In this document: one piece after another, positions 1-24,226 of the stretch
Numbering within the stretch: position 1 is the stretch's first letter
Layout of the letters: every line of letters starts with the position of its first letter
Origin: Antedon mediterranea
Lineage: Eukaryota; Echinodermata; Crinoidea; Comatulida; Antedonidae
Direction of reading: 5' to 3'
Assembly (NCBI RefSeq): GCF_964355755.1
Contig: NC_092672.1
Location: 21,944,501 to 22,008,500 of the forward strand
Length of the DNA: 64,000 nucleotides
The notes under the pieces: model-generated
The model's input: the letters and a program-made list of their open reading frames with translations, nothing else
Told to the model about the DNA's origin: nothing
The model's database searches: none
Translations under genes and position numbers: made by a program

Positions 1-185
1 ATTTACTTATATTTAGGTGGTGTTATGTAATGAATTATAAATCATCCTTGCTGGAGGTTAATTAATCTAATTATTTCGGGTTTCCGTTCTGACCTTGTTA
101 TTATTCTTGATGGTCAATTTTAATTATTATTTCCGCCAGGTGTTTCTTTGTCTCTTAATTATTAATTTTTGACGCGATGTTCTAG

Positions 186-434
186 TACGTGGAGCAAGGG
201 AGTTGTGCAGATACTGTTATAATAATTAGCGATGATGAGGAGACTGTTGTTCCAGGCAGTGATATAGATGATCGTTACATGGAGGCCGAAGAGGTTATCC
301 CCGCGGGTATAGATGAAGGAGTCGAGAGGAGTAATAGGCCTACAAGTTGTATATTTACGTACGTAGACGAGGTGGAGAGAGAATTTTTGTTGAAAATGGA
401 GCGTTTGATTAAACAATCAGTTGTTTCCTTTTAA
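186..434 (+). CDS. Small acidic ORF with SUMO-interaction-like motif (left arm)
   Basis: The open frame of about 82 codons begins right after a TTCTAG that looks like a splice acceptor and has no ATG at its beginning, so it is more likely a 3' exon than a complete gene; the first internal ATG comes about 30 codons in. Near the N-terminus the residues VIIISDDEE match the classical SUMO-interacting pattern, a hydrophobic core followed by acidic residues. The rest is acidic and then turns basic and hydrophobic around EREFLLKMERLIKQ. The frame is kept in the opposite arm with an E to K change in the acidic run. I do not recognise the protein family. Its place upstream of the polymerase promoter suggests a second gene of the element. 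Confidence 0.45.
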   Translation, partial: YVEQGSCADTVIIISDDEETVVPGSDIDDRYMEAEEVIPAGIDEGVERSNRPTSCIFTYVDEVEREFLLKMERLIKQSVVSF

Positions 435-496
435 TTGTTTGCAGTGCTTCCCGTTTAGGTTTAATAAATTATTTTTATGGCGCGTATTTTTGATTT

Positions 497-884
497 GTCC
501 TTTCACTACATCTCTCCAATTTTTTCCCTTTGTTGTTTTAATTAAGGTGTTTCCTGGGTCCATGTTTTCCATTTGGTCGAAGGCTAAATCTAATGGTCAC
601 TGTTGTGGGAGGGTCTTCCTAATTATGTAAGGGCTGTTTGACCAATCTTAATAGCGGACACATTTCCTAAAGGAAGTTCTAAGTACCTTTGTCCTTTCAC
701 TACATCTCTCCAATTTTTTCCCCTTTGTTGTTTTAATTAAGGTGTTTCCTGTGTTCATGTTTTCCGTTTGGTCGAAGGCTAAATCTAATGGTCACTGTTG
801 TGGGAGGGTCTTCCTAATTATGTAAGGGCTGTTTGACCAATCTTAATAGTGGACACATTTCCTAAAGGAAGTTCTAAGTACCTT
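497..884 (+). repeat. 194-bp tandem duplication upstream of the polymerase promoter (left arm)
   Basis: Sequence beginning GTCCTTTCACTACATCTCTC at 497 recurs at 691 with few changes, giving two units of about 194 bp. Each unit includes GGTCGAAGGCTAAATCTAAT and CCTAAAGGAAGTTCTAAG. The second copy ends about 40 bp before the TATA box, so the pair may be an upstream regulatory repeat. The opposite arm carries the same pair. Confidence 0.85.
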
Positions 885-926
885 TGTTTGCATAAATTAT
901 TAAATTTAATTAGTGTCGTGGGATGG

Positions 927-960
927 TATAAAAACAGCGTAAGTGTGGGTAATTTTTCAT
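927..960 (+). promoter_or_regulatory. TATA box and initiator of the polymerase gene (left arm)
   Basis: TATAAAAA at 927-934 is followed about 30 bases later by TCATTC (A at 959), the spacing expected for a TATA/Inr RNA polymerase II core promoter. The first in-frame ATG after it is at 991, 32 bases downstream. An earlier alternative ATG-like start near 943 would lie upstream of the predicted transcription start, which is why 991 is preferred. Confidence 0.6.
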
Positions 961-990
961 TCGCCTACTGATTATTCTAGACTTATTACT

Positions 991-3900
991 ATGGCTCATT
1001 ACGAATCATCATCATCATCTTCCGATTCTAACGATAGCTTGTTTATCGAATGCCAGAGAGCAGTAGAAGCTATCGTTAGTTTATCGCGAAATAATGTCGA
1101 AAATATCGATACCGACGATGTTATCCCCGATATTGGACTACTAGAAGATTTCGTATTTAATGACCAGGATCTTGATTTAGATGTTAGCCAGAGTGTTTCT
1201 GAAGCCGATAGCCTCTCACTTTCGGATATTTGTAATAATGCTATTGAGATAGTGCAGGAGCTATCGGCTAATTTGCGTATTGATGACGTAGAAGTAAGTG
1301 TTTGTTTATTTTATTTTTTTTACATAATATTTATTTTACCGTGTATAATTCTAAAAAAGTAGATTGTGTGTAACCGAACGTGTGTTTACAGCGTTTTACG
1401 GCTTCTTTGTGTTTCTTTCTAATTTATTTATTTATTTTTTTTTAATTTTAAATTTTTTTTTTACCGTGTATATCTCATAAAGTGGTAGTTTATGTAATTG
1501 GGGCATTTACAAAGTGTTTCTGCGTTTACGGTTTATACGCGTTTTCCTTTCTAATTTATCTATTTATTTATTTTTTTTTTTCTGTATAGTACGGTGTTGG
1601 TGCTCACACCAAATGTTTGAGTTTGAGAGGAAATGTCGAGATTAATGATTCAGCGGAGTCTTCGATTATTGAGGTAACTATCGTTTTATTTTCTTTACTA
1701 CTGTTGTTGTTGTTGTTGTTGTTGTACAACGTCTTTTATTTCTTTTTTCTTTACCGTTTTTCTCTTTTTGTTTTCAGCCTGTACCCATACAGTACGGAAG
1801 GGGCGTTAATAGAAAGAGGCTCAGAATCGAAGACGGAGAAGAAGAAGAAGAAGAATTTGTCAATATTGATACTGTTGAAGACGAGGACCTTAACCTTGAT
1901 GAGGTAGAGTTGAATCACTTCTGTAGAATCGTTCAATTAGCTGATAGGTATAATCAACGTTTTAACGCGACTATTAGCGATTTTTTAGTAAATTTTTTAA
2001 ATATTGATCATATAAGTTTAGAGGTGTTTCTGCCCACACTGTATCGAATTTTCGAGCATGTCGTCGATAATCTCTGCATTAACGTGCATGTCGACGACAT
2101 GCTTCGAATAGTCATACAGGCTGAGGGGTTAGATTCACCTATCTCTATCCCTTTTGGACGGAGGGGCCATCTTACGGCTGACGTTATTTTTGCAGCCATT
2201 ATGAAGGTCCTTCAGTCCAAAACGGATATTTTTATTAATAACAAGTTTAAATTTAACGTTCTCCACATGAGAATGCCTAGGGGTGGGGGCTATAGAAGAA
2301 ACGGTATCGACATATTGTTAAATGCTAAATGTATAATTAAGATTAAGAATGATGATAACGAAACTATCTGCTGCGCACGTTACGGGTATTTCTATGCTCG
2401 AAGACAAAATTAACAACGTAACTAGATGGAATAACGTTAGACAGGGTAAGTGTGAACAAAAAAAAGCCGCCCTTCATTTACTTAGAGATTCGGGGGTTAG
2501 GGAGCAGACATGCGGCATCGAGGAAATAAAAAAGATGCAATCAAAATTACCAAATTACCAAATTATTGTCATTTCAAAAGACAATTTAAATTCTGTCATT
2601 TTTAGCGGCGATTATAGAAAGAAGCAGATATATCTTTATCATCATTCTAATCATTACGATCTCATAACAACAATGACAGGTTTTCTAAAAATTGACTATT
2701 TCTGCGATAGATGTCATAAGGGGTATATTCACAAGTACCAACACAATTGTCAATTTACGTGCGTGCTGTGTAAGCACAATGACTGCCCCTCTTCTAATTC
2801 TTTTGAAAATAGAGAGAGTAGAATAGAATGTAAAGAATGTAATAGATTTTTTAAGGATAGGCAATGTTTCACCAATCATAAACAATCTCCTGATTCTAAA
2901 GTTTCAGTATGTGGCAAAATTAAAAATTGTTCAACTTGTAATAGGATCGTTCACAAAGATCACAATTGCCAAAACCGCTTTTGTAGAATTTGTAGGACTT
3001 TCGTTTCATACGATCATCAATGCTACATGGAACCGGTTGTAGCCCCTAAGCATACTGAAAGAAAGTTTAAGAATCAGGAGGCCCGTAACAGAGCTGTCAC
3101 TAAATATTTCTTTTTTGATTTCGAATGCACGCAAGATACAGGCGAACACAAACCAAATTTATGCGTTCTTCAAAAAACTTGTCTTAATTGTATCGACGGC
3201 GCTAATGATTCCGCCGATTGTGACGTGTGTGGGGATAAAACAGTGGTTTTTCACGGGGGGTCTGCATGCGAAGATTTCTGCAATTACGTATTCAAAATTA
3301 CAAATTTAACGAAAATATTACGTGTATCGCTCACAACTTCCAGGGTTTGATAGTTACTTCGTGCTCAACTACCTGTACGAAAACTCCATTGTACCGGATG
3401 TAATGGCTCGCGGTGGTAAACTTATTTCGATTAGGACTAAAGAAACGAGCATTCGATTCATCGATTCCCTTTCATTTCTGCCCATGCCTCTATCCAAATT
3501 GCCCAAAACTTTTGGCATCTCCGAACTTAAAAAGGGTTACTTTCCTCATTATTTTAATTCTTTAGAAAACCAAAATTACGTAGGTCCTTACCCCGATTCT
3601 TCAAATTATTCCCCCGATAAAATGACTACTTCAGGTCGAGAATCTTTCTTTAAATGGTACAACCAGAAAATTGATAGTAATCAAGTATTTGATCTTAAAA
3701 AAGAACTCGTCGAGTATTGTATTAGCGATGTAGATAGTGAAAGAAGAAAGTGTTGTCTTACTTTTAGACATCTTTTTTTGAAAGTAACTATATCGCCGAA
3801 AAACCCTCTACTCGGCGGTGTTGACCCCTTTTCAAATAATTTAATGACAATTGCCTCAGCGTGTAACCACGTATTTTCTAGAAATGTTTTAAAACCATCC

Positions 3901-5695
3901 ACCATCGCTCTATTTCCAGCATCAGGGTATTTAACAACCGTTAACCATTCTCACTCTAGCATGGAATGGCTGTGCTACGAGTCACATAAAAGGGGGGTCT
4001 TTATCCATCATGCCAGAAATGGAGGGGAAAAAATGTTTGGGCCTTACTCCGTCGACGGCGCATGTTTAGAAAACAAAATAATTTTCGAATTTATGGGTTG
4101 TTTTTTCCACGGGTGCCAAGATTGTTATAGACCCGATTCCATTAATCCCTTCAATAACGAGACCATGTTGGAATGCTTTGTCAAGACAAGCAAGAAAACA
4201 CGGTTTCTGAAGGAACAATTTCCAGATTTCGAATACGTCAAGATTTGGGGACACGAATGGAAACGGATCAAGCAATCGTTGGCCCCAAACATTAAATCTA
4301 TCGTCTCCAAAGTTCCTTTAATTAGGCAGACTTTGAATCCAAGAGACGCGTTTTTCGGTGGGAGGACTAATGCCAGTTGTTTGTTCTATAAGGTAAAACC
4401 GGGTGAAGAAATTAATTACATAGATTATACTTCCTTGTACCCTTATGTAAATAAATACGGTACCTACCCCGTAGGGCATCCTGAAATCAATGTCCACGGA
4501 TATCAACGATTATTTCGGCTTGATAAAGTGTAGGCCTACAATCGAAGCGCCTAAAAAATTATTCCATCCGGTCTTACCTTATAGATCAAACGGTAAATTA
4601 ATGTTTGCTCTCTGTAGAACATGCGCCGATTCTCAACAACAAACCGCTTGCAATCATTCCGGTACAGATAGAGAATTTACGGGTTCTTGGGCAACGATCG
4701 AAGTCGCTAAAGCCGTGGAAGTTGGGTACGAGATACGTAAAGTTCACGTAGTATGGCACTTTAAAAATAAAAGCGTGTACTCTGCAGATTCTCCCTCGTC
4801 CGGTCTATTTGCCGCTTACATTAACACCTTTTTAAAATTGAAACAAGAAGCTTCGGGTTGGCCTGAATGGTGTAAAACGCCCGAAGATAAACAAAAATAC
4901 ATTTCGGACTATCGAACCGTAGAAGGTATCGACTTGAATCATGACGACATTGCGTACAATCCTGGGCTTCGATCTCTGGCCAAATTAATGCTAAATAGTT
5001 TTTGGGGTAAATTTGGCCAGCGTGAAAATCTCACGAGAATTAAATATACGCAAGATCCTAACGAGGTTTACGATATTTTATCGAACCCTGGGATAACCGT
5101 TCATGACATAAATTTTGTTAATGATAATTTGGCGGAGGTAAAATACGAGGACGAGGAACAATTTGTAGAAGTTAACCGAAAGGTTAACGTTGTCATTGCC
5201 GCATTTACCACAGCGTTAGCGCGTTTAAAATTGTACGAGCTGTTGGAACAATTGCAGGAGCGCGTCCTGTATTATGATACCGACAGCGTAATCTTCGTAT
5301 CAAAACCCGGAGATTGGGACCCTCCCCTGGGCGACTATTTGGGTCAGTTAACGACCGAAGTCGATCCTAAAGATGGTAAATTCATCGAGTCCTTCGTTTC
5401 TGGGGGGCCTAAGAACTACGCCTATAAATTGGATACGGGGAAGACCGTTTGTAAAGTTAAGGGTTTTACCCTTAACTTTACAAACGCTCAGAAAATTAAT
5501 TTTGACACCGTCTCCAATATGGTAAGGGGTGTTGGCCCCGATACAATTAAGACGGCTGAGAAGAATCGCATAACGCGCAAGCCAAAAACACGAAAGATAG
5601 TCAACGAAACATCGACTAAAGACTATCGAATCGTGTACGACAAAAGAATTATTATCGAAAATTATCGTACAGTTCCTTACGGGTATGTTTGGTGA
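991..5695 (+). pseudogene. Protein-primed family B DNA polymerase, three exons, broken (left arm)
   Basis: Predicted exons are 991-1293 (donor GTAAGT), 1590-1673 (acceptor TATAG, donor GTAACT) and 1778-5695 (acceptor TTTTCAG), all phase 0. Exon 1 is acidic and serine-rich; exon 3 opens with a Glu run. Then come a conserved N-terminal region with Cys/His clusters (about 2690-3030), the exonuclease motifs (DFE near 3120; FDSYF near 3350; an intact YxxxD near 3715), a Cys-containing insert (FFHGCQDCY near 4110), and the polymerase palm motifs: SLYPYV near 4430, KLMLNSFWGKFG near 4985, YYDTDSV near 5270. The product would make element DNA using a protein primer. Compared with the right arm, an 8-base deletion near 2380, a one-base deletion near 3295 and a 14-base deletion near 4490 shift the frame, so this copy is probably dead. 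A 6-base insertion GGCCTA near 4533 keeps the frame. Confidence 0.85.
5446..5486 (+). other. Perfect 19-bp stem-loop inside the polymerase coding sequence (left arm)
   Basis: CGTTTGTAAAGTTAAGGGT at 5446-5464 and its exact reverse complement at 5468-5486 flank a TTT loop. It encodes part of a conserved stretch (around KVKGFTLNF) downstream of motif C. The right arm carries the same structure at 7660-7700. Confidence 0.9.
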
Positions 5696-6459
5696 ATCAC
5701 GGCAATACATTTCTTTTTAAAAATGTAAACATACTTTGTTATAGATAATTATTTGTTACTCTTTATACATTCTTTACCGTACTCTCTCTTTTTTTTTATA
5801 GTTTGAACAAAATATATTTGTAGTTTTAATGTAAATATTTTTATACCTCTTTTAATATAAATAATTTTTATACCCGTTTTTTAAAGTCGAATTTTTGCGG
5901 GGGTTAAGTAAATATATTTTAAAATATTTTTCCGCTTGATTTTCTTATGTCGATACCGTTTCTCTTTTTGTAGAATAAGTACATATATTTCGTAATTTTA
6001 ATTTAAATATTTTACCACTTGAATTCTTATGTCGATACCGTTTCTCCTTTTTGTAAATTAAGTAAATATATTTTTCCACTTGAATTTCTTATGTCGATAC
6101 CGTTTCTCCTTTTTGTAGATTAAGTAAATATTGTTATAACTGTTTTAATGTTAATACATTTTATACTTATAAAAATCGATTTTTGAAGATTAAGCAATAT
6201 TTTTGTAATTTTAATTTAAATATTTTTCCACTTGATTTCTTATGTCGATACCGTTTCTCTTTTTTGTAGATTAAGTAAATATTGTTATAACTGTTTTAAT
6301 GTTAATACATTTTATACTTATAAAGTCGATTTTTGTAGATTAAGCAATATTTTTGTAATTTTAATTTAAATATTTTTCGACTTGAATTCTTATGTCGATA
6401 CCGTTTCTCATTTTGCGGATTAAGCAAATACATGTTTGTAAAGTTATTTTGTTTTGTTT
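5696..6459 (+). repeat. AT-rich 3' block with five antisense 18-mers (left arm)
   Basis: No gene is visible. Irregular tandem repeats of roughly 60-150 bp contain TATGTCGATACCGTTTCT at 5946, 6028, 6090, 6241 and 6391, each followed by a T-rich stretch and, in most copies, a form of GTAGATTAAGTAAATAT. The 18-mer is the exact reverse complement of polymerase exon 3 at 2297-2314. The block lies directly after the stop codon, so it may hold the 3' UTR, the polyadenylation region and possibly replication or regulatory sites. Confidence 0.8.
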
Positions 6460-6667
6460 GTCAATTGACACTTGAACTTGACCTCTATACAAGGACGAAT
6501 AGACTGTGACAATTAACCATGACCTATGGTCAACCGTTTTATTGGGAGGCTCTCAAATTTCGACGAAGTCGAAAACTGAAACCCCATGCTTTTGGGACCA
6601 GAGGTCATGGTTAATTGTCACAGTCTATTCGTCCTTGTATAGAGGTCAAGTTCAAGTGTCAATTGAC
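6460..6667. repeat. Apex of the palindrome with nested hairpin
   Basis: A 66-bp stem (6460-6525 against 6602-6667) surrounds a loop of about 76 bases. At its centre TTTCGAC-GAA-GTCGAAA (6558-6574) forms a second small hairpin. Just outside the stem the arms differ (about 40 bases on the left, about 70 on the right) before long-arm identity resumes near 6420 and 6731. Confidence 0.85.
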
Positions 6668-6730
6668 ACAAGTCTTTTTTCCCATGTTCAGAGTTCAAGT
6701 AATTAACCTTTTAATTATTAACCGCATCCG

Positions 6731-7440
6731 CAAAATGAGAAACGGTATCGACATAAGAATTCAAGTCGAAAAATATTTAAATTAAAATTACAAAAATATT
6801 GCTTAATCTACAAAAATCGACTTTATAAGTATAAAATTTATTAACATTAAAACAGTTATAACAATATTTACTTAATCTACAAAAAAGAGAAACGGTATCG
6901 ACATAAGAAATCAAGTGGAAAAATATTTAAATTAAAATTACAAAAATATTGCTTAATCTTCAAAAATCGATTTTTATAAGTATAAAATGTATTAACATTA
7001 AAACAGTTATAACAATATTTACTTAATCTACAAAAAGGAGAAACGGTATCGACATAAGAAATTCAAGTGGAAAAATATATTTACTTAATTTACAAAAAGG
7101 AGAAACGGTATCGACATAAGAATTCAAGTGGTAAAATATTTAAATTAAAATTACGAAATATATGTACTTAATCTACAAAAAGAGAAACGGTATCGACATA
7201 AGAAAATCAAGCGGAAAAATATTTTAAAATATATTTACTTAACCCCCGCAAAAATTCGACTTTAAAAAACGGGTATAAAAATTATTTATATTAAAAGAGG
7301 TATAAAAATATTTACATTAAAACTACAAATATATTTTGTTCAAACTATAAAAAAAAAGAGAGAGTACGGTAAAGAATGTATAAAGAGTAACAAATAATTA
7401 TCTATAACAAAGTATGTTTACATTTTTAAAAAGAAATTTA
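6731..7440 (-). repeat. AT-rich 3' block with five antisense 18-mers (right arm)
   Basis: Mirror image of the left 3' block. The 18-mer appears on the plus strand as AGAAACGGTATCGACATA at 6738, 6898, 7039, 7101 and 7193. Its coding counterpart in this arm is at 16292-16309. No gene is visible in the block. Confidence 0.8.
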
Positions 7441-7450
7441 TTGCCGTGAT

Positions 7451-9867
7451 TCACCAAACATACCCGTAAGGAACTGTACGATAATTTTCGATAATAATTC
7501 TTTTGTCGTACACGATTCGATAGTCTTTAGTCGATGTTTCGTTGACTATCTTTCGTGTTTTTGGCTTGCGCGTTATGCGATTCTTCTCAGCCGTCTTAAT
7601 TGTATCGGGGCCAACACCCCTTACCATATTGGAGACGGTGTCAAAATTAATTTTCTGAGCGTTTGTAAAGTTAAGGGTAAAACCCTTAACTTTACAAACG
7701 GTCTTCCCCGTATCCAATTTATAGGCGTAGTTCTTAGGCCCCCCAGAAACGAAGGACTCGATGAATTTACCATCTTTAGGATCGACTTCGGTCGTTAACT
7801 GACCCAAATAGTCGCCCAGGGGAGGGTCCCAATCCCCAGGTTTTGATACGAAGATTACGCTGTCGGTATCATAATACAGGACGCGCTCCTGCAATTGTTC
7901 CAACAGCTCGTACAATTTTAAACGCGCTAACGCTGTGGTAAATGCGGCAATGACAACGTTAACCTTTCGGTTAACTTCTACAAATTGTTCCTCGTCCTCG
8001 TATTTTACCTCCGCCAAATTATCATTAACAAAATTTATGTCATGAACGGTTATCCCAGGGTTCGATAAAATATCGTAAACCTCGTTAGGATCTTGCGTAT
8101 ATTTAATTCTCGTGAGATTTTCACGCTGGCCAAATTTACCCCAAAAACTATTTAGCATTAATTTGGCCAGAGATCGAAGCCCAGGATTGTACGCAATGTC
8201 GTCATGATTCAAGTCGATACCTTCTACGGTTCGATAGTCCGAAATGTATTTTTGTTTATCTTCGGGCGTTTTACACCATTCAGGCCAACCCGAAGCTTCT
8301 TGTTTCATTTTTAAAAAGGTGTTAATGTAAGCGGCAAATAGACCGGACGAGGGAGAATCTGCAGAGTACGCGCTTTTATTTTTAAAGTGCCATACTACGT
8401 GAACTTTACGTATCTCGAACCCAACTTCCACGGCTTTAGCGACTTCGATCGTTGCCCAAGAACCCGTAAATTCTCTATCTGTACCGAAATGATTGCAAGC
8501 GGTTTGTTGTTGAGAATCGGCGCATGTTCTACAGAGAGCAAACATTAATTTACCGTTTGATCTATAAGGTAAGACCGGATGGAATAATTTTTTAGGCGCT
8601 TCGATTGTACACTTTATCAAGCCGAAATAATCGTTGATATCCGTGGACATGTCGTTGCGATCATTGATTTCAGGATGCCCTACGGGGTAGGTACCGTATT
8701 TATTTACATAAGGGTACAAGGAAGTATAATCTATGTAATTAATTTCTTCACCCGGTTTTACCTTATAGAACAAACAACTGGCATTAGTCCTCCCACCGAA
8801 AAACGCGTCTCTTGGATTCAAAGTCTGCCTAATTAAAGGAACTTTGGAGACGATAGATTTAATGTTTGGGGCCAACGATTGCTTGATCCGTTTCCATTCG
8901 TGTCCCCAAATCTCGACGTATTCGAAATCTGGAAATTGTTCCTTCAGAAACCGTGTTTTCTTGCTTGTCTTGACAAAGCATTCCAACATGGTCTCGTTAT
9001 TGAAGGGATTAATGGAATCGGGTCTATAACAATCTTGGCACCCGTGGAAAAAACAACCCATAAATTCGAAAATTATTTTGTTTTCTAAACATGCGCCGTC
9101 GACGGAGTAAGGCCCAAACATTTTTTCCCCTCCATTTCTGGCATGATGGATAAAGACCCCCCTTTTATGCGACTCGTAGCACAGCCATTCCATGCTAGAG
9201 TGAGAATGGTTAACGGTTGTTAAATACCCTGATGATGGAAATAGAGCGATGGTGGATGGTTTTAAAAAATTTCTAGAAAATACGTGGTTACACGCTGAGG
9301 CAATTGTCATTAAATTATTTGAAAAGGGGTCAACACCGCCGAGTAGAGGGTTTTTCGGCGATATAGTTACTTTCAAAAAAAGATGTCTAAAAGTAAGACA
9401 ACACTTTCTTCTTTCACTATCTACATCGCTGATACAATTCTCGACGAGTTCTTTTTTAAGATCAAATACTTGATTACTATCAATTTTCTGGTTGTACCAT
9501 TTAAAGAAAGATTCTCGACCTGAAGTAGTCATTTTATCGGGGGAATAATTTGAAGAATCGGGGTAAGGACCTACGTAATTTTGGTTTTCTAAAGAATTAA
9601 AATAATGAGGAAAGTAACCCTTTTTAAGTTCGGAGATGCCAAAAGTTTTGGGCAATTTGGATAGAGGCATGGGCAGAAATGAAAGGGAATCGATGAATCG
9701 AATGCTCGTTTCTTTAGTCCTAATCGAAATAAGTTTACCACCGCGAGCAATTACATCCGGTACAATGGAGTTTTCGTACAGGTAGTTGAGCACGAAGTAA
9801 CTATCATAACCCTGGAAGTTGTGAGCGATACACGTAATATTTTCGTTAAATTTGTAATCTTTGAATA
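7451..9867 (-). pseudogene. Family B DNA polymerase, C-terminal part of the right-arm gene
   Basis: The open frame runs from the LINE junction at 9867 to a stop at 7451. It carries the second exonuclease motif, the third one with its tyrosine changed to asparagine (ENCISDVD against EYCISDVD in the left arm), the Cys-containing insert, and polymerase motifs A, B and C as in the left arm. It is uninterrupted and lacks the left arm's 14-base deletion near motif A and the GGCCTA insertion. The N-terminal part of the gene lies at 15306-17614, on the far side of the inserted LINE and in the same frame. As it stands the gene is split and presumably inactive. Confidence 0.85.
7660..7700 (-). other. 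Perfect 19-bp stem-loop inside the polymerase coding sequence (right arm)
   Basis: Right-arm counterpart of the 5446-5486 hairpin, with arms at 7660-7678 and 7682-7700 and a three-base loop. It is identical in stem sequence. Confidence 0.9.
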
Positions 9868-9930
9868 TTCATTCTTTCTTGGAGATCCAAGAAACATTTA
9901 TTATATATGGCCTTTGGCCCAAATAATATA
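9868..9930 (-). other. LINE 3' end with two stem-loops
   Basis: On the minus strand GGCC-AAA-GGCC is followed by TTTCTTGG-ATCT-CCAAGAAA just before the junction. Terminal stem-loops of this kind in LINE families are recognised by the element's own reverse transcriptase, so this is the probable priming signal. Confidence 0.6.
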
Positions 9931-9956
9931 CAATGTAATACAATATTAAATAAATA

Positions 9957-12900
9957 TCAGTTGAGTGCGTTTAAATATTCTGTTCTACGTTTAAATGAAA
10001 AAAATAAATATTTTCCAAGTTTAACAATAAGATCAGTATTTGTGGCAGACATAAGATAAATATATTTTAATTTAGTTGGGTTGTTTGTATAAAAGGAAAA
10101 CATATATTTAGTTCTAATATCTGAATAAAATGGACCAACTAAAGTGAAATGATATTCATCTTCAATTGATTGTAAAGCACATAATTTGCATAATCTTTCA
10201 TTTCTATTTATACAATTCCATCTTCCTTTTTCAATTTCTAATTCTAAAATTCCTAGTCGTATCTTAGTCATAATTTGTCTATGTTTGTAATTTGTTACTT
10301 TCGTTAGATATTCTTCAATTCCAAACTTATATTTAACGTGCTTGTAATATTGGAGCTTAGAGTGTATCCTAGTATCTTCGTAGAATTTCTGTCGTTCAAT
10401 ATCTGTAAGCCTTTGTTTAAAATTTGAAATAAAAGTATATATATTATTAACCTGTTGTGAGTACCATATGTTACCAAATCCATTTATGCATAGTATTTGT
10501 TTTACGTCATTGGCCCAACATTGCTCATTTCTTTGAGCTTTTCTATATTGAAAATCATAACATTGTTTAATAAATTTGTCATTATCCATTTGGATTACTC
10601 TAAGCCAATAACGAATTATATTAATGATAATTTGAATTTGGATAGTGAATCTTCCACATTCTCCTCTCACTGCAACACTTGGTGCAGAATTACCTATTCC
10701 TAGAATGTATTTACAGAATCTTAGATGAACTTTCTCTAATACTGATATATCATTTAAACCCCATATTTCGCTACCATAAAGTAAGATTGGCATAATCTTA
10801 ACATCAAATATATGGTTCCATATATTAACTTGGAGGTTACCAAAACGTCTATGGGTCAATCCTTTTAATGTGAACAAAGCCTTATTAGCTTGTTGACAAT
10901 TGTATTCTTTGGCTTTATTCCAATTACCATTTGAGTTGAAAACAACTCCTAAATATTTAAAGGATTTGACAATGTCAACTGTATTTCCATTGTAATTCCA
11001 TTTTTCAAATTTGTTAAGATTACCACCATTCTTAAACACCATAATATTACTCTTGTTAACATTGACAGTTACTTCCCATCTTGTACAATAGGTAGATAAC
11101 TTGTTTAAATAATATTGTAGACCATAAACGGTATCACCAAATAACATAAGGTCATCTGCATAGAGTAAATGATTAATTTTTAGATTTCCTATTTGGATTC
11201 TATGCTCGTCGCCTCCCTCATTTAATGTTTCACTCAAATCATTAATAAAAACATTAAATAAAAAGGACGAGAGTGGCGAACCCTGTTGTATACCTATTAG
11301 ACATTTGAAAGAATTACTAATATTGCCGTCGACCTTAACATGTGCTGATAACTTATTGTACATTGAATTAATAACGTTTAACATTTTTCCTTTTACTCCT
11401 GAATTTTTTAGTTTTATGTGAAGATATTGATGTCCTACGGAGTCAAAGGCTCGTTTAAAATCAATGAAAGCAACATATACTTTCCCACGTTTTTTTCCTA
11501 GGTATTTATTAATGATTGTGTTAAGAATAAATACATTATCCGATGTTCTGAACCCCTTTCTAAAACCGGCTTGTTCCTGATGTAGAATGTTATTATCTTC
11601 TGCCCAAAATTGTAATCTTTTATTGATAATATGTAAGAAAATTTTAGCAAAAACAGGAATAAGTGATATTCCTCTATAATTCTCTGGTTGTTCTTTGTCA
11701 CCTTTTTTAAATATTGGGACAATAAGGCTGGTTGCCCATTGCTGTGGAAACTGTCCTGTATTATAAATTATATTATATAATTTTGTTATTAGATTGATTA
11801 CATTTTGAGATGAGTGTATAAAAAGTTCTGGTAATAATCCATCGATTCCAGGTGATTTACCTGTTTTTTGGGATTTAATGGCATGAATTACCTCATCTAC
11901 TGTAATGTCATTATTTAGGTTAGGTTTGTTTTCATTTACAGCAGGTTCATCATTAATGATACTTTCTACATTTTGATTATCTCTATTTTCATCAATATGA
12001 AATAAGGATTCGAAATGAGTGCGCCATGTATTAATACATATGTTACTTGGAAAATTTGGTTTTGTTTGTTTTAGTTTAATCCAGAATGATTTGGAGTTTT
12101 TTTCTCCTAATGATCTAATCAATTCTGTACGTGATCTTTTAATATAGCTGTATTTCATATTTTTTATTAATGTTTTATATTCTTTTTTTATTTCCAGGTA
12201 TGCATTAAGCAATGTTTGTGTACGATTGTGTCGGAATCTATTTAAATTTCTTCGAACTTTGTTTTTAAGTGCAAGACATTGATTGTCATACCATGTGTCT
12301 TTAGCTTTAGTTGTTTTATTGTTGGAATTCCTATGGATAATTCCTTTACATGCATATTCATACAATCTACCTACAGTTGAAACCGCTTCATCAATTAGGT
12401 TATCATTAATCAAGTTAGTTATTTCATTTTTAAGTTCATCGATTTTATTATGCTGTAATCTTAATTTAAATGTTTCAGTATATGTTTCTGACCAATTGAA
12501 TTTAGTTTGTTTAGGATTAGGACAATTTTCAATATTTAATTTTTTTATTTTTATATTATCTTTAGTTAGTAGGCCTAATTGAAACGTAATTGGCATATGA
12601 TCAGATTCTATTCTATTTTCTACTTTCAAATCTTCTATGTACCTGAAGTTATCAGCTTTTGTCAATATATAATCGACTACGCTTTTGCCTTGTTGTCCTA
12701 TGAAAGTGTAGCTTTTACTATACATTGGGTTAATTCTACCATTAGCAATTCTTAAATTCGTTTCTTTACAAAAATTGAGAAGATCTATGCCATAATTATT
12801 CGTGACGTTATCTTCATTAATTCTAATTTTTACATTATCTTCATCATCTTCAATATATAATTCGTTATCCCAATCTATTGGGCATACATCGTTGTTGACA

Positions 12901-13667
12901 TAATCCAATAAATCTCCTGTTCTACCATTGAAGTCTCCAACAATGAATATTTGATTTTTATTATTATATTTATATAAATATTCAGCGTATTCGTTTGTAA
13001 GTATTTCATATAAATTGTTATTATTAGCATATGGGGAGTTTTGTGGTGGTCTGTAAACTACAGCCATTATTATAGCATCGTTCTCCGTTTTGATTCGTAA
13101 CCACATAATATACTTAGATAAGCTAGGTAATTCTTTAACTTTGATATTGGTTTTATAATATATCATAATTCCACCTGTATTTCTACCACGGTGTTGTAAC
13201 TTTTCTTGCATTTTACTTATACAATTATATCCCTTAATGTAGTAGTCATCACTATAAGTTGTCCAAGTTTCAACCAAACATATTACATCGAAATCACAAA
13301 TAAATTTTATAAATTCACAATCACTAAAATTACTTTTTAAACCATTTATATTCCACACAATAGTCTTTAAAGAGGTGGACGTGTAAATACTTTTACTTAT
13401 ATTTTTATTTGTAACATTGGTATATATATTGTTATTATTGACGTTGTTATTCCTATTATTAACGTCGGCGTTTATGTTATCGTTATCTATACCATTTGTT
13501 TGACCATTATTAGTTGTATTGTCAATATTTTCTTTTTCCTGATTTTCGTTATTATTCTCACCTTTATTATTATTATTATTGTCATTTACGTCATTATCAA
13601 CAATTGTACCAATAATATTATTACATTTGTTGTTTATTTGATATGTGTTTGGGCCATGGCCGGACCC
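9957..13667 (-). CDS. LINE ORF2: APE endonuclease and reverse transcriptase
   Basis: The open frame starts immediately after the ORF1 stop TAG (13668-13670) in the same frame, with no ATG before the endonuclease domain. The first ~100 codons are an Asn-rich linker. The APE endonuclease begins at WNINGL (13355) and shows LVETW, VVYRPP, VGDFNGRTGD and SDHMPI. The reverse transcriptase follows, with FKKGDKEQPENYRGISLI, AFIDFKRAFDS, QQGSPLSSFLFN and the catalytic YADD. The C-terminal region has YGSEIWG and a Cys/His cluster (LCKLC...DEYHF) whose last expected Cys is Gly. The protein nicks target DNA and copies element RNA at the nick. The frame is open throughout, so this copy could be active if ORF2 is translated, by readthrough of the TAG or by a non-AUG start. 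Confidence 0.9.
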   Translation of the reverse strand, partial: GSGHGPNTYQINNKCNNIIGTIVDNDVNDNNNNNKGENNNENQEKENIDNTTNNGQTNGIDNDNINADVNNRNNNVNNNNIYTNVTNKNISKSIYTSTSLKTIVWNINGLKSNFSDCEFIKFICDFDVICLVETWTTYSDDYYIKGYNCISKMQEKLQHRGRNTGGIMIYYKTNIKVKELPSLSKYIMWLRIKTENDAIIMAVVYRPPQNSPYANNNNLYEILTNEYAEYLYKYNNKNQIFIVGDFNGRTGDLLDYVNNDVCPIDWDNELYIEDDEDNVKIRINEDNVTNNYGIDLLNFCKETNLRIANGRINPMYSKSYTFIGQQGKSVVDYILTKADNFRYIEDLKVENRIESDHMPITFQLGLLTKDNIKIKKLNIENCPNPKQTKFNWSETYTETFKLRLQHNKIDELKNEITNLINDNLIDEAVSTVGRLYEYACKGIIHRNSNNKTTKAKDTWYDNQCLALKNKVRRNLNRFRHNRTQTLLNAYLEIKKEYKTLIKNMKYSYIKRSRTELIRSLGEKNSKSFWIKLKQTKPNFPSNICINTWRTHFESLFHIDENRDNQNVESIINDEPAVNENKPNLNNDITVDEVIHAIKSQKTGKSPGIDGLLPELFIHSSQNVINLITKLYNIIYNTGQFPQQWATSLIVPIFKKGDKEQPENYRGISLIPVFAKIFLHIINKRLQFWAEDNNILHQEQAGFRKGFRTSDNVFILNTIINKYLGKKRGKVYVAFIDFKRAFDSVGHQYLHIKLKNSGVKGKMLNVINSMYNKLSAHVKVDGNISNSFKCLIGIQQGSPLSSFLFNVFINDLSETLNEGGDEHRIQIGNLKINHLLYADDLMLFGDTVYGLQYYLNKLSTYCTRWEVTVNVNKSNIMVFKNGGNLNKFEKWNYNGNTVDIVKSFKYLGVVFNSNGNWNKAKEYNCQQANKALFTLKGLTHRRFGNLQVNIWNHIFDVKIMPILLYGSEIWGLNDISVLEKVHLRFCKYILGIGNSAPSVAVRGECGRFTIQIQIIINIIRYWLRVIQMDNDKFIKQCYDFQYRKAQRNEQCWANDVKQILCINGFGNIWYSQQVNNIYTFISNFKQRLTDIERQKFYEDTRIHSKLQYYKHVKYKFGIEEYLTKVTNYKHRQIMTKIRLGILELEIEKGRWNCINRNERLCKLCALQSIEDEYHFTLVGPFYSDIRTKYMFSFYTNNPTKLKYIYLMSATNTDLIVKLGKYLFFSFKRRTEYLNALN

Positions 13668-14648
13668 CTATCTAGGTTTATATCTACTATACTTAACTAC
13701 TTTATCATTATCTATATCATATGTAAAAGTTTCGTCATCAATAATGAGTTTATCGTATCTTATTTTGAACGGTTTTCCGCTTTTAATAGCTTCATCTATT
13801 TTTGGTTGTAAATTTTTTCTGATCTTACGAACTCTTGCTGTGTAATCTTCGCTGATAGTAATTTGTTTCCTTCTTTCACCCCGGTCTTCATTTTTGTTCA
13901 TTTTTCGACGTTGTGTTCTACTTGCTTTTAGAACATTTTCTTTAGTTTTGTAATCTTTGAATTTCACAATGATCGGTCTCGGTTTAAATCTTGCGTTGAG
14001 CCTATGTGCCCTCTCAATCTCAATATTCTCCCCACCAATACCGAGATCATTTGTAAAGTGTTCTTTTACTTTCTTCTCACTCTGATCCCAATTCTCATGT
14101 TCGCTATCTATTACTCCATATACTATCAGGTTGTTACGTCTGCTTTGACCTTCAATTTTGTCTATATGTTTGATTAATTGTAAGTTCATTGTTTTAAGTT
14201 GTTGATTTTCTTCTTCTATTATTGTCATTCTTTCGTTTAGTGAGTCCATGTTGCTATTTAGTGTATCAATTTTTTCTTTTACGCTTTTAACATCTCCTGA
14301 AATGTCATCCATTTTCTTATTCAATTTCGTGTTCATTGTTTGTAGTTGTATTAATATATTTTGTATTGGAAGTTCATTTCCTCCCGCATTCAGCGCAACT
14401 TGTGTTGTTGCGTCTTCCGTTGTGGGTTTACCAGTAAGTTCATCCAATGTAGCTTGTCTAGTGTAAACTGGACCTGGATTGCTTTCGATATCGCCGGCCA
14501 AAAAAAGTAACAAGCATAACGCAGATAGTCGTAGTGTAGTTCTAATGACTGCACCTAAAGAACCATGACATTTTATGCGCTTTTGTTTATTTCGTTTTCC
14601 TCTCCAATATAGTCCTATTCTTAACCGGTAATTATCAATGTCAATCAT
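13668..14648 (-). CDS. LINE ORF1 with N-terminal signal-like stretch and 2A motif
   Basis: 326 codons. Residues 1-30 are basic; 39-51 are hydrophobic (LRLSALCLLLFLAG), leading into DIESNPGP at 53-60. That is the 2A signature, at which the ribosome skips the bond between G59 and P60. Residues ~90-170 are a predicted coiled coil. Residues ~175-260 (RRNNLIVYGV, ERAHRLN, RPIIVKFKDYKTK) resemble the RRM/C-terminal region of L1-type ORF1 RNA chaperones. The product should bind element RNA and form a particle with ORF2. In related sea urchin elements the leader before 2A can act as a signal peptide when skipping fails; that role here is inferred. The stop is TAG GGG TCC, followed in frame by ORF2. 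Confidence 0.88.
   Translation of the reverse strand: MIDIDNYRLRIGLYWRGKRNKQKRIKCHGSLGAVIRTTLRLSALCLLLFLAGDIESNPGPVYTRQATLDELTGKPTTEDATTQVALNAGGNELPIQNILIQLQTMNTKLNKKMDDISGDVKSVKEKIDTLNSNMDSLNERMTIIEEENQQLKTMNLQLIKHIDKIEGQSRRNNLIVYGVIDSEHENWDQSEKKVKEHFTNDLGIGGENIEIERAHRLNARFKPRPIIVKFKDYKTKENVLKASRTQRRKMNKNEDRGERRKQITISEDYTARVRKIRKNLQPKIDEAIKSGKPFKIRYDKLIIDDETFTYDIDNDKVVKYSRYKPR
14469..14495 (-). other. 2A ribosome-skipping motif
   Basis: Codons for GDIESNPGP in ORF1 residues 52-60. This matches the D(V/I)ExNPGP consensus exactly. Confidence 0.92.
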
Positions 14649-15305
14649 ATTGATGTAGGAGTTTAAGTGTGATTAGACGTGTAGTTATGTAAGCCAGTGC
14701 GTGCTATGTTGAGGTATTGTAGAACCGGAAGCAACTGGTTTCGGTAATGTGACGTGGCGTTTTTCGATCAAGTCCGGTCATGTGACTTGAAAATTCCGTT
14801 GAATTTTTTATACTGAAGTTATAGATTAAGTTAATGTAACGGAAATTTATAAAGTGAAATTGATATAACTTGTGGAATTTACTATTGAGTTATTACAATA
14901 AACCAAACAAAAGCAACTTATCTTGGTTTGACAGGCCTATGTCGTGGGCCTGCCGCTTAACAGCTGCTCTGGAATGTCGCCATGAGTTATGTTAATCCAA
15001 CAAGTAAAAAATCAGTTCCAATCGGTGTTTAAAAATCCCGCCGCTTAATTGCGGCTTACACAGGTAGTTTACAGTAGCTGTATATAACGTTAAATGTAGT
15101 TTCCGGTGAGAAGGCTGTATAAAAAACGGTTGTCGTAGGCCTAGTATATTGATACTAGTGTACAGCGTCTACTGTACTATAGTAGACAAACGCCTTTTCG
15201 CTGGGCTGGCGTGTTGAACAAACAATTTAAGCATACCGGGCTAGAGAGCATCGGAGAAACACGTTTACACTCGACCGCACCTTATACAGTAAATACGTAA
15301 TACGT
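14649..15305 (-). other. LINE 5' untranslated region
   Basis: About 650 bases between the 5' junction and the ORF1 ATG. It is less AT-rich than its surroundings and has no ORF. Non-LTR elements usually carry an internal promoter here; I can identify no specific box. Confidence 0.6.
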
Positions 15306-17614
15306 AATACGTAATTGCAGAAATCTTCGCATGCAGACCCCCCGTGAAAAACCACTGTTTTATCCCCACACACGTCACAATCGGCGGAATCATTAGCGCC
15401 GTCGATACAATTAAGACAAGTTTTTTGAAGAACGCATAAATTTGGTTTGTGTTCGCCTGTATCTTGCGTGCATTCGAAATCAAAAAAGAAATATTTAGTG
15501 ACAGCTCTGTTACGGGCCTCCTGATTCTTAAACTTTCTTTCAGTATGCTTAGGGGCTACAACCGGTTCCATGTAGCATTGATGATCGTATGAAACGAAAG
15601 TCCTACAAATTCTACAAAAGCGGTTTTGGCAATTGTGATCTTTGTGAACGATCCTATTACAAGTTGAACAATTTTTAATTTTGCCACATACTGAAACTTT
15701 AGAATCAGGAGATTGTTTATGATTGGTGAAACATTGCCTATCCTTAAAAAATCTATTACATTCTTTACATTCTATTCTACTCTCTCTATTTTCAAAAGAA
15801 TTAGAAGAGGGGCAGTCATTGTGCTTACACAGCACGCACGTAAATTGACAATTGTGTTGGTACTTGTGAATATACCCCTTATGACATCTATCGCAGAAAT
15901 AGTCAATTTTTAGAAAACCTGTCATTGTTGTTATGAGATCGTAATGATTAGAATGATGATAAAGATATATCTGCTTCTTTCTATAATCGCCGCTAAAAAT
16001 GACAGAATTTAAATTGTCTTTTGAAATGACAATAATTTGGTAATTTGGTAATTTTGATTGCATCTTTTTTATTTCCTCGATGCCGCATGTCTGCTCCCTA
16101 ACCCCCGAATCTCTAAGTAAATGAAGGGCGGCTTTTTTTTGTTCACACTTACCCTGTCTAACGTTATTCCATCTAGTTACGTTGTTAATTTTGTCTTCGA
16201 GCATAGAAATACCAGTAACAATAGCGCGTGCGCAGCAGATAGTTTCGTTATCATCATTCTTAATCTTAATTATACATTTAGCATTTAACAATATGTCGAT
16301 ACCGTTTCTTCTATAGCCCCCACCCCTAGGCATTCTCATGTGGAGAACGTTAAATTTAAACTTGTTATTAATAAAAATATCCGTTTTGGACTGAAGGACC
16401 TTCATAATGGCTGCAAAAATAACGTCAGCCGTAAGATGGCCCCTCCGTCCAAAAGGGATAGAGATAGGTGAATCTAACCCCTCAGCCTGTATGACTATTC
16501 GAAGCATGTCGTCGACATGCACGTTAATGCAGAGATTATCGACGACAAGCTCGAAAATTCGATACAGTGTGGGCAGAAACACCTCTAAACTTATATGATC
16601 AATATTAAAAAAATTTACTAAAAAATCGCTAATAGTCGCGTTAAAACGTTGATTATACCTATCAGCTAATTGAACGATTCTACAGAAGTGATTCAACTCT
16701 ACCTCATCAAGGTTAAGGTCCTCGTCTTCAACAGTATCAATATTGGCAAATTCTTCTTCTTCTTCTTCTCCGTCTTCGATTCTGAGCCTCTTTCTATTAA
16801 CGCCCCTTCCGTACTGTATGGGTACAGGCTGAAAACAAAAAGAGAAAAACGGTAAAGAAAAAAGAAATAAAAGACGTTGTACAACAACAACAACAACAAC
16901 AACAGTAGTAAAGAAAATAAAACGATAGTTACCTCAATAATCGAAGACTCCGCTGAATCATTAATCTCGACATTTCCTCTCAAACTCAAACATTTGGTGT
17001 GAGCACCAACACCGTACTATACAGAAAAAAAAAAAAAATAAATAGATAAATTAGAAAGGAAAACGCGTATAAACCGTAAACGCAGAAACACTTTGTAAAT
17101 GCCCCAATTACATAAACTACCACTTTATGAGATATACACGGTAAAAAAAAAAAATTAAAATTAAAAAAAATAAATAAATAAATTAGAAAGAAACACAAAG
17201 AAGCCGTAAAACGCTGTAAACACACGTTCGGTTACACACAATCTACTTTTTTAGAATTATACACGGTAAAATAAATATTATGTAAAAAAAATAAAATAAA
17301 CAAACACTTACTTCTACGTCATCAATACGCAAATTAGCCGATAGCTCCTGCACTATCTCAATAGCATTATTACAAATATCCGAAAGTGAGAGGCTATCGG
17401 CTTCAGAAACACTCTGGCTAACATCTAAATCAAGATCCTGGTCATTAAATACGAAATCTTCTAGTAGTCCAATATCGGGGATAACATCGTCGGTATCGAT
17501 ATTTTCGACATTATTTCGCGATAAACTAACGATAGCTTCTACTGCTCTCTGGCATTCGATAAACAAGCTATCGTTAGAATCGGAAGATGATGATGATGAT
17601 TCGTAATGAGCCAT
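15306..17614 (-). pseudogene. Family B DNA polymerase, N-terminal exons of the right-arm gene
   Basis: Exon 1 is 17614-17312, exon 2 is 17016-16933 and exon 3 begins at 16828, with the same splice signals and phases as the left arm. Exon 3 is open from 16828 to the LINE junction at 15306 and does not have the left arm's 8-base deletion. It encodes the Glu-rich start, a conserved N-terminal region (RRNGIDILL, CCARAIVTGI, CGIEEIKKMQ, LYHHSNHYDLI), a series of Cys/His pairs typical of invertebrate DNA_pol_B_2 proteins, and the first exonuclease motif (FFFDFECT). The LINE sits between the first and second exonuclease motifs. The remainder of the gene is at 7451-9867 in the same frame; without the LINE the gene would be about 1,440 codons long. 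Confidence 0.85.
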
Positions 17615-17644
17615 AGTAATAAGTCTAGAATAATCAGTAGGCGA

Positions 17645-17678
17645 ATGAAAAATTACCCACACTTACGCTGTTTTTATA
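17645..17678 (-). promoter_or_regulatory. TATA box and initiator of the polymerase gene (right arm)
   Basis: Mirror of the left-arm promoter. The TATA box reads as TTTTTATA on the plus strand at 17671-17678 and the initiator GAATGA is near 17643-17648. The start codon is at 17614. Confidence 0.6.
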
Positions 17679-17720
17679 CCATCCCACGACACTAATTAAA
17701 TTTAATAATTTATGCAAACA

Positions 17721-18108
17721 AAGGTACTTAGAACTTCCTTTAGGAAATGTGTCCACTATTAAGATTGGTCAAACAGCCCTTACATAATTAGGAAGACCCT
17801 CCCACAACAGTGACCATTAGATTTAGCCTTCGACCAAACGGAAAACATGGACACAGGAAACACCTTAATTAAAACAACAAAGGGGAAAAAATTGGAGAGA
17901 TGTAGTGAAAGGACAAAGGTACTTAGAACTTCCTTTAGGAAATGTGTCCGCTATTAAGATTGGTCAAACAGCCCTTACATAATTAGGAAGACCCTCCCAC
18001 AACAGTGACCATTAGATTTAGCCTTCGACCAAATGGAAAACATGGACCCAGGAAACACCTTAATTAAAACAACAAAAGGAAAACATTGGAGAGATGTAGT
18101 GAAAGGAC
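17721..18108 (-). repeat. 194-bp tandem duplication (right arm)
   Basis: Right-arm copy of the repeat pair upstream of the polymerase promoter, with the same two units and only scattered base differences. Confidence 0.85.
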
Positions 18109-18170
18109 AAATCAAAAATACGCGCCATAAAAATAATTTATTAAACCTAAACGGGAAGCACTGCAAACAA

Positions 18171-18419
18171 TTAAAAGGAAACAACTGATTGTTTAATCAA
18201 ACGCTCCATTTTCAACAAAAATTCTCTCTCCACCTCGTCTACGTACGTAAATATACAACTTGTAGGCCTATTACTCCTCTCGACTCCTTCATCTATACCC
18301 GCGGGGATAACCTCTTCGGCCTCCATGTAACGATCATCTATATCACTGCCTGGAACAACAGTCTTCTCATCATCGCTAATTATTATAACAGTATCTGCAC
18401 AACTCCCTTGCTCCACGTA
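18171..18419 (-). CDS. Small acidic ORF with SUMO-interaction-like motif (right arm)
   Basis: Counterpart of 186-434. The frame opens after a TTCTAG acceptor-like site and encodes VIIISDDEK in place of VIIISDDEE, otherwise nearly the same 82 residues. More upstream sequence is visible in this arm, but no convincing first exon: the nearest ATG gives only a short peptide. It could be the last exon of a gene that starts in the subterminal region, or a fortuitous frame kept by arm identity. Confidence 0.4.
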   Translation of the reverse strand, partial: YVEQGSCADTVIIISDDEKTVVPGSDIDDRYMEAEEVIPAGIDEGVERSNRPTSCIFTYVDEVEREFLLKMERLIKQSVVSF

Positions 18420-18649
18420 CTAGAACATCGCGTCAAAAATTAATAATTAAGAGACAAAGAAACACCTGGCGGAAATAATAATTAAAATTGACCATCAAGA
18501 ATAATAACAAGGTCAGAACGGAAACCCGAAATAATTAGATTAATTAACCTCCAGCAAGGATGATTTATAATTCATTACATAACACCACCTAAATATAAGT
18601 AAATATATTAATAAATAACGCCCCTAAACAAAGAAAGACCTTCATTAAT

Positions 18650-19055
18650 TAAGAATAATCTAATTATTATGAAACCAGGAAAAGAATGACCTTCATTAGA
18701 AACACCTGGCGGAAATTACATAACTAATACAATAACAGGAAAAGAACGACCTTCATTAGAAACACCTGGCGGAAATTACATAACTAGTACGAAACCAGGA
18801 AAAGAACGAACTTCATTAGAAACACCTGGCGGAAATTACATAACTAATACAATAACAGGAAAAGAACGACCTTCATTAGAAACACCTGGCGGAAATTACA
18901 TAACTAGTACGAAACCAGGAAAAGAACGACCTTCATTAGAAACACCTGGCGGATATTACATAACTATTAAAATAACAGGAAAAGAACGACCTTCATTAGA
19001 AACACCTGACGGAAACGACCTTCATTAGAAACACCTGGCGGAAATTACGTAATCA
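18650..19055. repeat. Subterminal array of 60-bp repeats
   Basis: About six to seven units of 60 bp share GAAACACCTGGCGGAAATTA and CAGGAAAAGAACGACCTTCA. Two variants alternate (CTAATACAATAACAGG and CTAGTACGAAACCAGG), giving a 120-bp higher-order unit. A lone copy of the CACCTGGCGGAAAT motif occurs inside the arm near 18465 and, inverted, near 133. This is probably part of the palindrome's terminal region, whose left counterpart lies outside the window. Confidence 0.88.
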
Positions 19056-19639
19056 GGAAATACACCAAGGTCGGGTCTGAAGTACCTCTTTTTCTACTCA
19101 TACATATTCCTGTTTTTTCTTTCAAAAGACTTTTATTTGAAACTGACAATAATTACGTAAATAAATTATACACTTTAGGAGCATTTTGTATTTATAAAGT
19201 AAAGATATTAAGTTTATTGGAAAAAGAAAAAAAAATCAATCTCCTACAAATGTTTAAATCTGAAAAAAAGATAAGAAATATGTAAATCTGCAGGTATACT
19301 GTATATGCTCAACCAGATTAAGGAAGAAAATATGTAAATGAGATACCATGAATGATGAATCTATTATGTTTTTTTTTTTCTTTTTTTTTTTCTTTTTTTT
19401 TTCTTGCTACTATATTGTATGTTTTGTAAATATGTATACCTTGATGATTTGAAAACAAAAAGACAAAATGTGAAAAGCTTTTTATAGATTGATGATAAAA
19501 AAATGATGAAGGATAAGAAGGTTTAGGTTTAAGTGGTGAAGTGTTTTCATCAAAGCCTTCATATTATAGGTATATATATGTAATTTGCACATTCTCACTG
19601 CATGTGGAATTTTGAAATGATAAAATGGTTAAAAGGAAA
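19056..19639. other. Non-coding AT-rich flank
   Basis: No gene seen. It contains interrupted poly(T) tracts near 19370-19405. The outer boundary of the palindromic element may lie near the start of this stretch. Confidence 0.5.
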
Positions 19640-20338: not shown

Positions 20339-20744
20339 TGTAGTGAATATTTATCTTTTAGTTGGTTTCGAGCTTTCTCAGGCGTATATCCACTCGACGT
20401 ACACTGCTGTCACTGAATGATAACTCATACAAAAAGTATATTTAACTCAACTAGAACTTTTATTCCTTGTAATTCGATTAATACATCTTTCTACCACTAC
20501 CAGTCAAGCCTTAATATATTCTTTATCATTTTTCCGTTTATCTACTCTGATCTTATTCTCTCTTCTCCTCTTAATATCTATTACATTCCACTTTTATACT
20601 GGACATGCAAATTTTAGGCTTCAGAGGAGGATAACATTTTCTCTCCAAAATTTATACGATTTTGATTGGCTAATAATATAAGACGGACCTGGTCTAAAGC
20701 ATCCTTCTCTAAACACAGAGAATCACAACATCAATAATATGACA
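20339..20744 (-). repeat. 3' LTR of the Gmr1-like element
   Basis: 406 bp, nearly identical to 25978-26383. Differences seen include TTTCGAG/TTCCGAG near the plus-strand start and AGACGG/GGCGG near its end. Confidence 0.93.
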
Positions 20745-20760
20745 TTCCCCTTTTTGGGAA
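20745..20760 (-). other. Polypurine tract
   Basis: On the minus strand AAAAAGGGGAA directly abuts the 3' LTR, the expected plus-strand DNA primer site. Confidence 0.8.
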
Positions 20761-24218: not shown

Positions 24219-24226
24219 TTTATTTT

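Follow-up and report, generated by a model that had tools for sequence, protein, structure and literature searches.

The stretch of DNA analysed here (the window) comprises 64,000 nucleotides of the crinoid Antedon mediterranea and corresponds to C3:21944501-22008500; other loci in the genome searched (354 Mb, 18 contigs) are given as contig and position in Mb. At its start lies a giant palindrome with one copy of a DNA polymerase gene in each of two inverted arms. We show that in it two copies of the polymerase end of a Polinton (a Maverick- or adintovirus-like element) meet tail to tail at a hairpin apex, the whole having been inserted as a single unit.

The window palindrome

Comparison of the window with its own inverse gives 99.4% identity between positions 1-3292 and 18604-15306 and 97.2% over positions 3289-9867. 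The near-identical inverted arms of at least 6.5 kb described in the original prediction, which was made from the letters of the window alone, are thereby borne out, and a chance origin is excluded because of their length. The span of 1 to 18604 given there needs correction. By the inverted-repeat comparison the right arm (minus strand) runs from 6596 to 19098, where it ends in the terminus CTACT, and position 1 of the window lies inside the left arm (plus strand, 1 to 6531 within the window). Extending the contig leftward, as had been advised, added 494 bases up to a terminus that mirrors position 19098, so that the left arm starts at C3:21944007. The whole palindrome measures 19,592 bp, or approximately 14.15 kb without a long interspersed nuclear element (LINE), with arms of approximately 7 kb each. 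At its centre the predicted apex hairpin (6459 to 6668) is present as a 73-bp inverted repeat (99%), with stem halves at 6459-6531 and 6596-6668 and a 64-nt loop. Both polymerase genes run toward this apex, and therefore tail-to-tail is a better term than the earlier 'head-to-head'.

Each arm carries 60-bp subterminal repeats, a SIM-like open reading frame (ORF), a 195-bp tandem pair, a TATA-like box (spotted by eye), a polymerase with a DNA_pol_B_2 domain and a 3' repeat array; the SIM-like ORF, the polymerase and the 3' repeats had been foreseen for both arms. On the plus strand of the left arm the SIM-like ORF is located at 186 to 434, the tandem pair at 494 to 887, the polymerase gene at 990 to 5695 and the repeat array at 5908 to 6430. 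Their counterparts on the minus strand of the right arm are the SIM-like ORF at 18171 to 18419, the tandem pair at 17718 to 18111 and the array at 6726 to 7238, together with the 60-bp repeats at 18594 to 19073, whose mirror copy lies left of the window. An acceptor-like TTCTAG precedes the left SIM-like ORF, which is perhaps a last exon. The left polymerase frame is broken at several places by small indels, and the right one is open save for the LINE that splits it (5.4 kb, approximately 9868 to 15305, minus strand; endonuclease and RVT_1 reverse transcriptase domains), which is found in the right arm only and is foreign to the original element. Three pieces of the right-arm gene can be read, all on the minus strand: the C-terminal 805 codons (7451 to 9868, open frame), the N-terminal part of the long exon (15306 to 16933, an ORF unrecognised by Pfam) and a first exon, ORF MAHYES..., at 17243 to 17662, assigned to the polymerase by splice signals alone. 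The three-exon structure proposed originally is plausible on the same signals. Near the start of the first LINE ORF (13668-14672, minus strand) stands the sequence GDIESNPGP, which we take to be a 2A-like motif.

The polymerase domain (PF03175, E 1e-39 in Pfam) belongs to family B, protein-primed type, the priming mode itself being predicted. Its nearest relatives are of the Polinton/adintovirus type, and the closest match is from Antedon mediterranea (96% identity across 64% of the query). Searching viral contigs with a single sequence and with an alignment revealed no relative encoding it, and a sequence search of the PDB with the window polymerase gave no match. Scanning other genome contigs returned one locus, an ordinary single-armed element on a contig that is filed as a bacterial metagenome-assembled genome and presumably misbinned. 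Two further features of the gene were observed. An 18-base stretch of its coding sequence (window 2297; mirror 16292) is repeated five times in inverted orientation within the 3' repeats of each arm (5946-6391; mirror 6738-7183), and therefore a transcript across these repeats would be antisense to the polymerase gene. In addition, the conserved CKVKG motif contains an 18-bp inverted repeat that is perfect and has a loop of 3 bases (5447-5485 and 7661-7699).

Like Polintons (adintovirus definitions according to excerpts of PMC11071296), the element has a family B polymerase, and its terminal repeats are shared with full-length copies in the same genome; its AGTAG... termini and 6-bp target duplication resemble theirs, the window deviating by one base in each. 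Unlike in Polintons, where single gene copies lie between short terminal repeats, every arm gene occurs twice inside an inverted repeat with arms of approximately 7 kb. No capsid, integrase, ATPase or protease gene was recognised by Pfam among its ORFs of at least 120 aa, as had been noted earlier for the first three.

Polintons and mirrored elements in the same genome

Ordinary single-armed elements are present at C3:20.02M and C10:12.38M; they are 99.5-99.9% alike and each has an open polymerase frame of 1344 aa. Another full-length single-armed element, C9:13250080-13267053, is framed by the 6-bp duplication taggat and has a polymerase with several stops. It codes for an integrase (rve plus chromodomain), a Peptidase_C5 protease, a PC4 domain (E 3e-22) and a protein that has Porites entries labelled capsid and major capsid protein among its homologues (55-56% identity); its match to a Pox_A32-like ATPase is weak (20.6 bits, below the curated cut-off of 22.8). 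By our own count, a lower bound, some 25 other loci hold single polymerase copies or pieces, some with open frames. The window arms match C3:20.02M (approximately 95-97%) over a stretch that begins in the terminal region on the polymerase side and ends just past the polymerase, and therefore derive from the polymerase end of a Polinton.

Mirrored elements recur. A genome search with the polymerase as query, in which 56 of the 185 candidates were scored so that counts are lower bounds, yielded convergent inverted polymerase pairs at five loci or more: the window, C3:21.75M, C9:16.69M, C9:14.84-14.87M (with approximately 22 kb of other DNA between the arms) and C5:3.33M (42-59% amino acid identity), where all 372 bases fetched near the ends are mirrored to the base. 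(C3:21.74M and 21.75M, C11:12.52M and 12.53M, C3:14.45M and 14.46M, and C3:13.85M and 13.86M are interchangeable names.) At C9:14.28M the fold-back is asymmetric, its left arm being short and its right arm full.

A second type carries exons resembling ALKBH2 (AlkB type). A search with the C3:13.86M arm, in which 40 of the 94 candidates received scores, revealed no fewer than ten loci at which a mirrored pair encloses a window-type apex: C3:13.86M, C11:12.53M, C10:20.26M, C3:14.46M, C2:34.23M, C5:20.98M, C3:31.23M, C4:35.61M, C9:17.52M and C6:27.40M. Further loci show one side only. C1:31.30M is named apart: it is mirrored to the base, matches stretches of the ALKBH2-like exons only (79-83%) and has no apex match. 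C2:20.96M was not counted as a palindrome, its plus and minus matches covering almost different parts of the query. The C3:13.86M arm, the one AlkB-type arm in which these ORFs were read, contains a SIM ORF and an interrupted PC4-like ORF (first piece E 0.03) besides the ALKBH2-like exons (C3:13856001-13857172; 2OG-FeII_Oxy_2, E 1.4e-19; ALKBH2 chains in the PDB, E 1e-33), and the ALKBH2-like stretch is common to the other nine loci. This stretch keeps 90-94% similarity in the diverged copies on C4, C6 and C9, against 66-78% over much of the arm; as it is better kept than the rest, constraint on the gene is suggested. Three AlkB-type elements with ends read are 13.6 kb long.

Both types share the apex. 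Its sequence was found at 15 loci (all 18 candidate stretches scored): the ten AlkB-type elements, three polymerase-type palindromes (window, C9:16.69M and C9:14.87M) and two one-arm loci, C5:20.87M, 1.4 kb behind a polymerase copy, and C6:26.87M, beside an AlkB-type arm. It therefore sits between mirrored arms in the window and in twelve other elements, and adjoins an element of this kind in all 15 cases. The full-length copies that were read showed no such apex, and neither did the centre of C3:21.74M. Later entry of the apex into the palindrome, as a transposon, was considered and dropped, since it was found at 15 loci only, 13 lying between mirrored arms and two next to a single arm. For the window apex, DNA folding yields -92.5 kcal/mol (z -22.9). 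Across nine copies (excluding partial copies and C9:16.69M, whose stem is truncated) 99.0% of 702 cells are paired, against 30-39% in slid registers; 12 of the 78 pairs are altered on both sides and none on one side only, and a 28-base core of the loop is identical throughout. Since whole arms are homogenised, this covariation indicates maintained complementarity and not by itself selection for a hairpin. The C11 and C2 AlkB-type elements have lost part of the centre.

The original prediction had contrasted a distinct class of element with a one-off inverted duplication among single-armed Polintons, and had advised looking for the apex and for further palindromes that are built alike and have clean target duplications. 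Such palindromes do recur in this genome. It also has single-armed Polintons that carry genes for integrase, protease and capsid; these are the source of the arms, so that the class is a palindromic branch of Polinton-type elements, not one unrelated to them. Mirrored Polinton relatives look like a recurring form of mobile DNA and not a single accident.

Insertion as a unit and the origin of the mirror

The right copy of the 6-bp target duplication of the window element, CATACA, occupies 19099 to 19104, and CGTACA (5/6 alike) lies just outside the left terminus. Apart from these hexamers the flanks are unrelated, the mirror stopping at the element termini. For Mavericks, excerpts of PMC8097293 give a 6-bp duplication, (AGT)2 ends and a mean size of approximately 17 kb; the terminal motif is AGTAGT at C3:21.74M and C9:13.25M and AGTAGA, one base off, in the window. 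Exact 6-bp duplications frame six of the nine elements whose ends were examined (C9:13.25M, C9:14.28M, C3:21.74M, C11:12.52M, C10:20.26M and C3:14.45M). Counting only the seven symmetric palindromes with ends read, four have exact duplications, one has a mismatch (the window) and two have none. With one target duplication around the whole and different DNA on either side, the palindrome must predate insertion. The argument leaves out C3:13838012-13884000, whose arm served as the AlkB-type query: here at least 46 kb are mirrored, including host DNA on both sides of the element, with 0.1-0.4 substitutions per kb in the outer part and 1.9 per kb in the centre, and this giant palindrome may be an artefact or a later, recent duplication.

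The two arms of an element resemble each other closely. Near the apex, arm-to-arm identity is 99.1-100% in seven of eight AlkB-type elements (stretches of 112-455 bases), the remaining one being C4:35.61M (91.6%, mostly gaps); between AlkB-type elements the same region is 82-99.8% alike. In a tree of polymerase segment A the arms are sisters within the window, C9:16.69M and C3:21.74M (support 100/99 each), and in segment B within the window (100/99) and C9:14.84-14.87M (100/100). Differences between arms look neutral: over at most 730 codons of segment A the counts are small (synonymous/nonsynonymous 4/9, 2/8 and 2/9), with ratios of nonsynonymous to synonymous substitution rates (dN/dS) of 0.60, 1.07 and 1.21, and two pieces of C9:14.84-14.87M give 0.89 and 0.97. 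Between elements dN/dS is mostly 0.2-0.5, reaching 0.58 for C9:14.28M against C3:21.74M, and 0.56-1.97 for one piece of at most 208 codons. Neutral changes between arms against constrained changes between elements indicate that the arms were alike around the time of insertion and decayed afterwards, the gene having been constrained before. Arms that change in concert fit the self-folding or fold-back replicon that had been offered as an example.

In coordinates of the C3:20.02M copy, the mirror turns at 29377/29413 in the window, at 29021 on both sides of C9:16.69M, at approximately 28.2k in C3:21.74M (within ATPase-like sequence that is 71% alike and somewhat rearranged) and at C9:14.28M by a joint of 28888 to 34769 with a LINE between. 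All four fall in a short stretch behind the polymerase; random turn points were considered and dropped for this reason. The clustering could arise because the polymerase is retained, because size is limited to about that of the full element, or because there are hot spots. Three palindromes (the window, C9:16.69M and C9:14.87M) make their turn through the AlkB-type apex, with 0 to approximately 950 bases of AlkB-type arm.

We consider it probable that the window element is a palindromic, self-complementary (snap-back) derivative of a Polinton/adintovirus-like element that arose as follows. A strand that was nascent or had been displaced during protein-primed, strand-displacing copying would have folded back on itself. 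In some cases this strand would have left its Polinton template, read through the apex of an element that was palindromic already and used short homologies to return onto its own arm; at C3:21.74M and C9:14.28M the turn would have been made without that apex. The product, with a complete Polinton terminus at each end, could then be copied, its arms held alike by fold-back pairing or self-templated copying while extrachromosomal. Integrase from full-length Polintons would have inserted it, after which both arms would decay without selection and a LINE would enter one of them. A terminal protein on the 5' ends is assumed from the polymerase family, and we infer both the copying mechanism and the autonomy of the element.

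Several observations weigh against this account. The copying step itself is unobserved. The target duplication of the window has its one mismatch; at C9:16.69M there is no matching duplication and the nearest termini differ in type, and C3:13.85M lacks a duplication and has mirrored host flanks. The centre of C5:3.33M, still counted here as an inverted pair, is unmirrored and contains another polymerase piece. For segment B, support for the C9:16.69M pair is weak (87/86) and the arms of C3:21.74M are not sisters. Arm identity could also stem from gene conversion after insertion, which would be incomplete given damage (the LINE, broken frames) in one arm only.

The alternative that survives best, though we hold it to be unlikely, is that the palindromes are defective by-products of Polinton replication, each isolated and comparable to defective interfering genomes, with no persisting lineage, the AlkB-type copies being a recent amplification of one accident. 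The differing polymerase-type centres, the lack of the shared apex at C3:21.74M and the 96-100% similarity of several AlkB-type copies agree with it. However, the AlkB-type copies on C4, C6, C9 and at C3:31.2M are 25-34% off the query over much of the arm, yet have kept the mirrored geometry, the apex and the invariant 28-base loop core, and the ALKBH2-like exon stretch is still 90-94% alike at the first three. Distinctly less probable is an inverted duplication in the chromosome, or two single tail-to-tail insertions, after or apart from integration. C3:13.84-13.88M shows that mirrored stretches with host flank occur in this assembly, and C9:16.69M, with its two terminal types, would suit such an origin, but a single 6-bp duplication frames C3:21.74M, C11:12.52M, C10:20.26M and C3:14.45M (and nearly so the window), all polymerase-type centres lie behind the polymerase, and the apex recurs in separate elements. 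Very improbable is a fold-back artefact of sequencing or assembly, in which hairpins turned reads back and the chromosome holds no palindromes: such long-read artefacts are described (PMC12870357) and C3:13.84-13.88M looks like one, but in the window, C3:21.74M, C11, C10 and C3:14.45M the mirror stops exactly at termini between differing flanks with target duplications, and arms differ by substitutions, indels and a LINE.

Beyond the palindrome, the window contains a Ty3/Gypsy-type long terminal repeat (LTR) retrotransposon at 20339-26383 (406-bp LTRs, 99% alike), a G+C-rich 71-bp tandem repeat at 34505-34809 and a 379-bp tandem duplication (98%) at 42163-42919.

Counterparts and meaning of a palindromic branch

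Palindromic deletion forms, in which one end of a protein-primed linear genome is present as an inverted dimer, occur among defective adenovirus genomes and derivatives of yeast killer plasmids. To our knowledge these are extrachromosomal, and we know of no integration or diverging lineage. Foldback transposons have long inverted repeats around a hairpin centre; unlike theirs, the termini, duplication length and genes of the window element are those of a Polinton. The closest counterpart described in the sources, as far as excerpts of PMC8235507 go, are the snapback genomes of adeno-associated virus: self-complementary, derived from one parental end, symmetric or asymmetric, with inverted coding regions in dimers, and helper-dependent. 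The window likewise has one parental end in inverted duplicate and a parental terminus at both ends. Those genomes are from a parvovirus with hairpin ends and were seen as particles, whereas here the parents are Polinton-type and the elements are fixed in the germ line with target duplications and known from the assembly alone. A literature search of titles and abstract openings found no description of palindromic Polintons, which is no proof of absence.

Going beyond the snap-back origin of the window element, we tentatively put forward, as a possibility we cannot yet call probable, that there is a lineage of obligately palindromic, integrating linear replicons with two mirror arms and a conserved apex hairpin. 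Their single strands would fold to a half-length duplex in which one arm restores the other, so that the arms evolve in concert. Polinton ends and integrase would be borrowed, and the cargo of the arms (polymerase or ALKBH2-like gene) exchanged around the shared apex, with the window as a polymerase-bearing member.

If true, Polinton-type elements yield germ-line snap-back genomes that integrate as units, and one snap-back type lasts long enough to diverge and stays palindromic. Defective snap-back viral genomes, otherwise replication by-products, would then be tied to transposon evolution, and the mirrored elements would form a natural record of the sites at which protein-primed replicons turn back. 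Because two promoters converge in such an element, double-stranded RNA against the polymerase of the parent is predicted, through which host silencing or satellite-like interference might come about.

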